From NCBI RefSeq assembly GCF_013031245.1, contig NZ_WPZL01000001.1, forward strand, positions 186,001-250,000: a DNA stretch of 64,000 nucleotides, written 5' to 3'. Of this stretch, positions 10,410 to 11,135 are shown piece by piece. Position 1 is the first letter of the stretch. Every line of letters starts with the position of its first letter. The translations under genes were made by a program, and so were the position numbers. Source of the DNA: Ruegeria lacuscaerulensis. GTDB taxonomy: Bacteria > Pseudomonadota > Alphaproteobacteria > Rhodobacterales > Rhodobacteraceae. Below the pieces are notes generated by a model. The model was not told the origin of the DNA. It searched no databases and saw only the letters and a list, made by a program, of their open reading frames with translations.

Positions 10410-10456
10410 AGGAAGCTCCTGAAAACTCGTTCAGAACTTCATCTTACACACAGTTC

Positions 10457-10504
10457 AAAAAAACAAAAAACGGCGGTTCCCAGGGAGGAGGAGGGGAACC
10501 GCCG
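10457..10504 (-). terminator. Terminator of the DUF1127-sRNA transcript (made by hairpin 6)
   Basis: On the minus strand an 11-bp stem (CGGCGGTTCCC/GGGAACCGCCG) is followed directly by TTTTTTGTTTTTTTG. The hairpin loop carries the CCTCCTCCC motif, so the last small RNA of the array also ends transcription. Confidence 0.9.
10471..10504 (-). ncRNA. CcsR-like sRNA hairpin 6 (terminal)
   Basis: An 11-bp GC-rich stem with the CCTCCTCCC loop is followed by a long T-run, so this RNA is expected to have a terminator-defined 3' end. The linker to hairpin 5 is TGAAAAGAA. Confidence 0.88.
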
Positions 10505-10513
10505 TTCTTTTCA

Positions 10514-10545
10514 ACATCAAGGCAGGGAGGAGGAGGCCCTGATGT
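10514..10545 (-). ncRNA. CcsR-like sRNA hairpin 5
   Basis: The stem ACATCAGGGC/GCCTTGATGT has 10 pairs with one G.U, and the loop holds CCTCCTCCC. A spacer hairpin without the motif (CCGGG/CCCGG, 10554-10569) lies between it and hairpin 4, like the one between hairpins 2 and 3. Confidence 0.85.
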
Positions 10546-10580
10546 ATCCGAACCCGGGTCTGATCCCGGTATGAGGAGAA

Positions 10581-10617
10581 CGCGGCGACACCAGGGAGGA
10601 GGAGAGGCGTCGCCGCG
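10581..10617 (-). ncRNA. CcsR-like sRNA hairpin 4
   Basis: The stem CGCGGCGACGCC/GGTGTCGCCGCG has 12 pairs including one G.U, with the CCTCCTCCC loop. The linker to hairpin 3 reads TGAAAGCG on the transcribed strand. Confidence 0.85.
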
Positions 10618-10625
10618 CGCTTTCA

Positions 10626-10657
10626 ACACCGGGAAAGGGAGGAGGAGTACCCGGTGT
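10626..10657 (-). ncRNA. CcsR-like sRNA hairpin 3
   Basis: An 8-bp perfect stem ACACCGGG/CCCGGTGT carries a loop containing CCTCCTCCC. The 33-nt spacer before it (10658-10690) holds a small hairpin without the loop motif, CCGGC/GCCGG at 10666-10682. Confidence 0.85.
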
Positions 10658-10690
10658 GTCAGCGTCCGGCATTCAGGGCCGGTATAAGAA

Positions 10691-10725
10691 GCGGCGACAT
10701 CAGGGAGGAGGAGAGACGTCGCCGC
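10691..10725 (-). ncRNA. CcsR-like sRNA hairpin 2
   Basis: A 10-bp stem, GCGGCGACGT/ATGTCGCCGC on the minus strand, has one G.U pair and a CCTCCTCCC loop. The stem is nearly the same as that of hairpin 4, which points to duplication of a two-hairpin unit. Confidence 0.85.
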
Positions 10726-10732
10726 TGAAATA

Positions 10733-10761
10733 CAGGTCCTAAAGGGAGGAGGAAGGACCTG
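10733..10761 (-). ncRNA. CcsR-like sRNA hairpin 1
   Basis: This is the first hairpin after the DUF1127 gene, 23 nt past its stop. It has an 8-bp perfect stem CAGGTCCT/AGGACCTG around a loop containing CCTCCTCCC. It is joined to hairpin 2 by the 7-nt linker TATTTCA, a possible ribonuclease E cleavage site. Confidence 0.85.
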
Positions 10762-10784
10762 ATCTCGGTTATGTCATTCTGCGC

Positions 10785-11009
10785 TTAACGCGCAATGTAG
10801 TCCTCGGCCGCTTGCAGCGCGACACGGCGGATCATCGAGCGGTGCAGGCCCAGATCGGCCAGTTCGCGGTTCGACAATTCAGACAGTTCGTTTACCGTCT
10901 GGCGGTAGATGCGGTAGCGGGTGAACCGGGTCTTTGCGGCCTCGAACAGCGAAGTAAGTCCGGTTGCAGGTGCGCCTTTGAGCGCGGTTTGATGTGCTGC
11001 TACAGCCAT
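10785..11009 (-). CDS. DUF1127 small arginine-rich protein (CcaF1-like)
   Basis: The 74-residue protein ends in the DUF1127 helical motif, with LSELSNRELADLGLHRSMI at about 42-60 and basic residues before and after it. The R. sphaeroides homolog CcaF1 binds RNA and affects maturation of CcsR RNAs encoded in its own 3' region and RNA turnover. This gene is followed by the same kind of hairpins, so the same role is inferred. ATG at 11009 was chosen because it gives the usual length. The upstream in-frame start at 11111 would add residues unlike the family and would overlap the likely promoter. The ribosome-binding site is weak (GGGTT). Confidence 0.9.
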   Translation of the reverse strand: MAVAAHQTALKGAPATGLTSLFEAAKTRFTRYRIYRQTVNELSELSNRELADLGLHRSMIRRVALQAAEDYIAR

Positions 11010-11095: not shown

Positions 11096-11116
11096 TAGCC
11101 CATGTCGTCAATGCCG

Positions 11117-11135
11117 CTATGCAGCAATTGCATAG
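11117..11135. promoter_or_regulatory. Inverted repeat upstream of the DUF1127 promoter, possible operator
   Basis: CTATGCA and TGCATAG are perfect 7-bp arms around GCAAT. The core GCAATTGCA recurs at 11084-11092 (as TGCAATTGCA from 11083), exactly 40 bp away and overlapping the candidate -35 box. Two such sites four helical turns apart look like a regulator that binds cooperatively or loops DNA. The regulator is unknown. Confidence 0.4.

Follow-up and report, generated by a model that had tools for sequence, protein, structure and literature searches.

Behind a gene for a small DUF1127 protein, the minus strand of Ruegeria lacuscaerulensis carries six hairpins that share one loop sequence. 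The questions raised by this locus are which kind of RNA the hairpins form, how many such RNAs there are, whether their number is out of the ordinary and what may control them. The locus is most likely a conserved and ordinary CcsR/cuckoo cluster of three RNAs in the 3' UTR of the DUF1127 gene. In what follows, the window is the whole stretch of DNA that was analysed, 64,000 nucleotides long.

The hairpin array

The six-hairpin array spans positions 10465-10766 of the minus strand. Its loop 10-mer, CCUCCUCCCU on the minus strand and thus AGGGAGGAGG on the plus strand, is present in six copies in the 64-kb window, starting on the plus strand at 10482, 10524, 10593, 10636, 10702 and 10743, against 0.10 copies expected from shuffled sequences. 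Over both strands of the 5,273,537-base genome, CCTCCTCCCT has six matches, all of them in the array, and its backwards control has three. The minus-strand region 10450-10790 folds with an energy of -158.9 kcal/mol, compared with a mean of -100.15 kcal/mol after shuffling (z -11.2). The six invariant-loop hairpins reported in the initial annotation are therefore real, as shown by this folding energy, by the absence of any further copy of the 10-mer in the genome and by the compensatory stem changes described below.

In transcript order, the motifs are spaced by 41, 66, 43, 69 and 42 nt, so that the hairpins fall into the pairs 1+2, 3+4 and 5+6 with a period of about 110 nt, as had been proposed. 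A/T-rich linkers (UGUAUUUCA, UUGAAAGCG and UUGAAAAG) join the members of a pair. The spacers between pairs contain small motif-less hairpins, the first at 10666-10682 (minus strand, CCGGC..GCCGG; alignment columns 107-125) and the second at 10554-10569 (minus strand, CCGGG..CCCGG; alignment columns 225-242). Linkers and spacer hairpins had both been described beforehand and are found again in the sequence and in the fold of the alignment. Hairpin 6 is followed by a U-run, UUUUUUGUUUUUUU, read directly from the sequence, with which it likely constitutes the transcription terminator of the array, a feature absent from the initial annotation. This terminator is absent from the terminator scan because the scan had a loop limit of 8.

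The DUF1127 gene and its surroundings

Immediately upstream of the array and on the same strand, as is characteristic of a DUF1127-CcsR (CIN1) locus, lies a short ccaF1-like gene of 74 aa (10785-11009, minus strand, ATG at 11009), the stop codon of which is 18 nt away from the first CcsR1 match. The match to Pfam family PF06568 (E 1.6e-15, scored on a longer ORF of 108 aa) and the common strand bear out the ccaF1-type partner gene that had been suggested, and the start at 11009 is identical in Ruegeria-group relatives. The terminator scan, with its loop limit of 8, listed none between the gene and the array, and a scan for sigma-70-like promoters found 0 where 1.1 would be expected by chance.

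Relatives were collected by a search with the DUF1127 protein, and the counts given for them concern the best 80 of 112 loci, which are mostly from Ruegeria and selected by similarity. In the window, the locus is flanked by mraZ on one side and by genes for a uvrD-type helicase and a DUF1330 protein on the other. Of the best 80 of 112 loci, 64 have MraZ upstream of DUF1127, 66 have UvrD, invariably on the strand opposite to DUF1127, and 22 have DUF1330; as the flanks extend to 2.5 kb at most, a neighbour that is absent may be out of reach. A search of the interval between DUF1127 and mraZ for an UpsM-like RNA (Rfam, E <=0.5) returned a single match, to a microRNA family and far below gathering, which is taken as chance.

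Division of the array into RNAs

The initial annotation had counted six CcsR RNAs, which would exceed the four that are described as co-transcribed with ccaF1 in R. sphaeroides (PMC10253847). This count has to be halved, because the proper unit is one RNA for every two hairpins. Indeed, the Rfam model of CcsR1 (RF02791) is 83 nt long and comprises two hairpins with CCUCCUCCC loops, and at a relaxed threshold it has exactly three full-length matches (1-83/83) on the minus strand, one per module. They delimit a first CcsR-like RNA with hairpins 1+2 at 10686-10766 (51.2 bits, E 1.7e-11), a second with hairpins 3+4 at 10577-10662 (42.3 bits, E 7.2e-9) and a third, terminator-bearing one with hairpins 5+6 at 10465-10548 (39.5 bits, E 4.6e-8). 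A further guide is the R. sphaeroides transcript RS0680a, which is presumably a CcsR RNA. In this transcript, two stem loops with the aSD motif have been described (PMC3927594, section 2.7); together with the two hairpins of the CcsR1 model, this makes six hairpins equivalent to three CcsR-like RNAs. The array accordingly holds fewer RNAs than that of R. sphaeroides and not more. As for the duplication that had been invoked, a two-hairpin unit was duplicated, but this module is one sRNA and no "two-RNA unit".

None of the three matches attains the gathering score of RF02791 (65.3 bits), which explains why the array was missed by the Rfam scan at gathering, where the 64-kb window yields two tRNAs and nothing else, and why a relaxed scan was needed. 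The covariance-model search that had been suggested is thus favourable in its three full-length matches and unfavourable in that all score below gathering. Two tandem tRNA-Gly (GCC) genes of equal length and score are located at 10-197 of the window (minus strand). The other relevant model, RF02344 (ar14), gives 52.9 and 45.2 bits, both below its gathering score of 58.8, with matches that cover 154 and 150 nt for a model of 123 nt, unmatched stretches included, so that the array does not qualify for this family, which is defined by a gathering-level match with three consecutive hairpins. In terms of structure, the array consists of adjacent hairpins, all six carry CCUCCUCCCU, which contains a CCUCCUCCC-type loop, and the stems are variable yet paired over 38 sequences. 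The CcsR/cuckoo identity put forward initially is upheld by the three RF02791 matches, by the DUF1127 context and by the loop and stem structure, and the array is filed as CcsR-like for its structure and its context; it does not count among the gathered members of RF02791. Among 20 scanned array loci (L007, L010, L011, L020, L030, L044, L048, L056, L058-L060, L063, L064, L069, L072, L075, L077, L078, L085 and L104), a gathering-level match to CcsR1 or ar14 occurs in three (L078, L072 and L085), with L078 alone reaching the gathering score of RF02791, so that annotation at Rfam thresholds misses the other 17.

Like the CcsR1-4/ccaF1 cluster as described for R. sphaeroides, the locus has two hairpins per RNA with CCUCCUCCC loops, DUF1127 upstream and a terminator at the end. 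It differs from that cluster in having three RNAs instead of four and from CcsR1/RF02791 in scoring below gathering; the motif-less hairpins between the RNAs set it apart from the R. sphaeroides locus by description only. The variable stems and invariant CCUCCUCCC loops are also shared with the cuckoo or alpha-r14 RNAs (RF02344; NfeR1 and SmelA075/SmelA099 of Sinorhizobium). However, descriptions of the rhizobial members give three or four hairpins for each transcript, whereas here pairs of hairpins stand behind DUF1127, and NfeR1 is described with its own sigma-70 promoter, whereas the array here follows the DUF1127 gene.

Hairpins in relatives were counted when they had a stem and at most two loop mismatches, a few of those with two mismatches (in L058, L060, L066 and L073) being doubtful. 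Counted in this way, their number ranges from 4 to 14 and is even in 74 of the best 80 of 112 loci, so that hairpins seem to be gained or lost in pairs. The range of 4-14 hairpins over the best 80 of 112 loci, the 26 motifs of the relative G165 and the terminator-like hairpin with which the array closes would fit a dose or sponge role of an uncut multi-hairpin 3' UTR, which would titrate ribosomes, 30S subunits or an RNA-binding protein, or else stabilise the DUF1127 mRNA. Such an uncut 3' UTR is nevertheless improbable, since RNase E is described as cutting the R. sphaeroides precursor into separate CcsR RNAs (PMC10253847, PMC8625941), and the conserved spacer hairpins and A/U-rich linkers would suit processing. 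Six separate one-hairpin sRNAs are more improbable still and were rejected. Each hairpin does have a full loop and a stable stem, but each CcsR1 match takes in two hairpins and exactly three full-length matches cover the array, 74 of 80 relatives (best 80 of 112) have an even number of hairpins, and RS0680a, with its two stem loops (PMC3927594), provides a precedent for the two-hairpin unit. Three RNAs of two hairpins each are therefore retained below.

Conservation and history of the array

The array is found downstream of DUF1127 in all of the best 80 of 112 loci, with at least three exact motifs in 79 of these 80; in L076, a single motif is exact and five differ at one letter. Six hairpins are no unusual expansion, as counting modules in relatives shows exactly six to be the commonest state (41 of the best 80 of 112 loci, a Ruegeria-dominated set), and clusters of three RNAs are therefore the most frequent form among the loci examined. 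In a sample of 394 family genomes drawn independently of the array, 297 contain at least one motif pair, compared with about 56 (hand count) for the backwards control, which is not independent of the arrays because CCCTCCTCCTCCC loops contain the backwards word. Motif pairs are located at two separate genomic places in G112 (C1:489292-489346 and C9:86810-87094) and in G092 (C2 and C27).

The stems were followed in an alignment of 38 six-hairpin arrays, namely the window and 37 of the 41 six-hairpin loci, with L068, L074, L075 and L076, which belong to other genera, omitted. Over the 68 pairs of the consensus structure, from which three long-range pairs were dropped, 99.4% of the cells are paired in the 38 sequences. 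Two-sided changes are seen at 20 of the 68 pairs, whereas the mean after shuffling is 8.6, with no value as high in 500 trials, and each of the six motif hairpins includes at least two such pairs. When the partner is slid by 1-3 columns, 31-46% of the cells are paired and 3-4 pairs are two-sided, a control that is biased toward the structure because the structure was derived from the same alignment. The conservation of the stems in relatives, on which the initial annotation depended, thus holds up. The spacer hairpins behave differently: 4/5 pairs are invariant in the first, with 100% of cells paired, and 5/5 in the second (38 sequences), and these nine invariant pairs out of ten reflect sequence conservation, not covariation.

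The modules are orthologous by position. In the 38 arrays, modules compared between genomes at a given position have a mean identity of 0.82-0.89, against 0.62-0.73 for modules at different positions of one genome. Of the 114 modules, 112 have as their nearest neighbour the module that occupies their own position in a different genome. Among 15 eight-hairpin arrays from the Ruegeria group, 14 (all but L034) have two central modules that are each closest to the middle module, which suggests that array size changes via the middle module; the first module and the terminator-bearing last one seem to stay. The two central-module copies of L048 are 99% identical.

The extreme case among the 394 family genomes, at 25 pairs, is G165 (L104, G165:C1:334949-336119), with 26 CCTCCTCCC motifs within about 1.2 kb in one array. 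This array is largely made of a near-identical 140-bp unit (6.5 copies, 97% matches), in contrast to the diverged modules of the Ruegeria-group arrays. Although repeated hairpins, and a 140-bp unit in 6.5 copies with 97% matches in one relative, are what ordinary mobile or REP-like palindromic repeats without regulatory function would also display, this explanation is practically negligible, given that the six genomic copies are all at a single place, that the same gene precedes the array in 80/80 loci (best 80 of 112), that the stems covary around fixed loops and that 112 of 114 modules are nearest to the same position elsewhere.

Anti-Shine-Dalgarno potential and proposed mechanism

The CCUCCUCCCU loops are taken here to resemble the anti-Shine-Dalgarno end of 16S rRNA. 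Their complementarity to Shine-Dalgarno sequences, already pointed out in the initial annotation, holds, and ribosome-binding-site-like matches are numerous: 7-nt complements of the loop occur 2-10 nt before an ATG 91 times, against 11 backwards, and a second 7-nt set does so 130 times, against 9. Both sets overlap, some rows being one site with two ATGs and three rows lying inside the array, and the counts express a potential only, since any genome that relies on strong Shine-Dalgarno sequences would yield similar ones. A genome-wide avoidance of the loop complement is not claimed: the 10-mer is confined to the array in this genome, against three backwards matches, but whole-genome counts of the 9-mer, arrays included, fall short of the backwards control in six of nine other genomes picked for their many motif pairs and exceed it in the remaining three (G165, G006 and G039).

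A DUF1127-CcsR (CIN1) operon that provides a DUF1127 protein together with three stress-type anti-Shine-Dalgarno sRNAs masking strong ribosome-binding sites is very probably what the locus represents. One minus-strand transcript would contain the 74-aa DUF1127 ORF and, in its 3' UTR, the three two-hairpin RNAs, the last hairpin serving as terminator. By analogy with R. sphaeroides, this transcript would be made under stress and then cut by RNase E, aided by the DUF1127 protein, into three short RNAs. Through the CCUCCUCCCU loops, these RNAs would pair with strong Shine-Dalgarno sequences, so that many mRNAs would be translated less or become less stable. Control of the promoter by a VtlR-type LysR regulator is probable as well, judging from the upstream site described below.

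In R. sphaeroides, an RpoHI/RpoHII promoter is described for the CcsR cluster, with RNase E and CcaF1 involved in maturation (PMC10253847, PMC8625941), and the CcsR RNAs are described as binding Hfq and targeting flhR (PMC8307010). Blocking of ribosome-binding sites has been proposed for cuckoo RNAs (PMC3927594, PMC7143759, PMC10746234). RNA binding is not universal among DUF1127 proteins, as the account given of YjiS offers no evidence for it (PMC12501420). The main texts of sRNA papers on Ruegeria pomeroyi and Paracoccus denitrificans contain nothing on CcsR or the loop motif, nor does that on P. denitrificans mention DUF1127.

The idea that DUF1127 escapes its own sRNAs by lacking a Shine-Dalgarno sequence was rejected, as 36 of 52 window ORFs, a rough set with spurious ORFs included, lack one too. 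AGGA, GAGG and GGAG are absent from the 17 nt upstream of the gene in 51/51 Ruegeria-group loci (L007-L057), and AGGA or GAGG is present, by eye, in several of the remaining 29 loci.

A candidate LysR-type site upstream of the operon

A VtlR-like candidate operator, TGCATAGCGGCATTG (CAATGCCGCTATGCA on the plus strand), is located at 11109-11123 of the minus strand, 100-114 nt upstream of the DUF1127 ATG on the operon strand, and is overlapped by an inverted repeat, CTATGCA-N5-TGCATAG, at 11117-11135. The reverse complement of the candidate site agrees in 13 of 15 letters with the Brucella VtlR site, CAATGCAGCCATGCA, as given in PMC12595884. With respect to the published VtlR consensus, GCAT-N3-TG-N3-T (PMC7486931), it has six of the seven fixed letters, reading GCAT-AGC-GG-CAT-T.

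CAATGCNGCNATGCA has its sole exact match in the genome at the site upstream of this DUF1127 gene, and one mismatch brings 17 more matches against 1 for the backwards control. The genome contains nine PF06568 matches, and for the eight other genes the nearest of these 17 matches is about 6.7 kb off. Leaving the two differing letters open fits the search pattern to this window, and with the 13 remaining letters fixed it is found exactly in 56 and with at most one mismatch in 72 of the best 80 of 112 loci, which are related and not independent draws; two or three mismatches are needed in 8. The reversed pattern is found with at most one mismatch in none of these 80 loci (best 80 of 112) and with two mismatches in 2. 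In the family sample, TGCATRGCNGCATTG is exact in 249 of 394 genomes, and the control is zero throughout. Among the 47 genomes with array positions listed, 32 have the site and 15 have none; it precedes the array by 312-524 nt on the same strand in 26 of the 32 and lies elsewhere in 6.

This conserved 15-bp candidate site is possibly the sole part of the locus that looks new; by term counts, none of the papers listed in a literature search combines VtlR with CcsR or CcaF1. Its closest parallel is found in the Brucella and Agrobacterium VtlR regulons (AbcR sRNAs), where 13 of the 15 letters recur in the Brucella site and where the targets are described as sRNAs with CU-rich anti-Shine-Dalgarno motifs together with DUF1127 or related small proteins, a combination similar to the present one. 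Unlike in these regulons as described, the sRNAs and DUF1127 would here belong to one operon, in a different order. The site raises the possibility of a regulator shared between the Rhodobacter CcsR and the rhizobial VtlR systems. It is conceivable, though somewhat short of probable, that a VtlR-type LysR regulator acts directly on the DUF1127-CcsR operon throughout the Rhodobacteraceae, that a circuit in which such a regulator switches on a DUF1127 protein and anti-Shine-Dalgarno sRNAs is ancestral to alphaproteobacteria, and that R. sphaeroides CcsR and rhizobial/Brucella VtlR-AbcR are versions of one regulon. In G112, with its two places, the sole operator-like site adjoins the single pair on C1 and not the longer array on C9.
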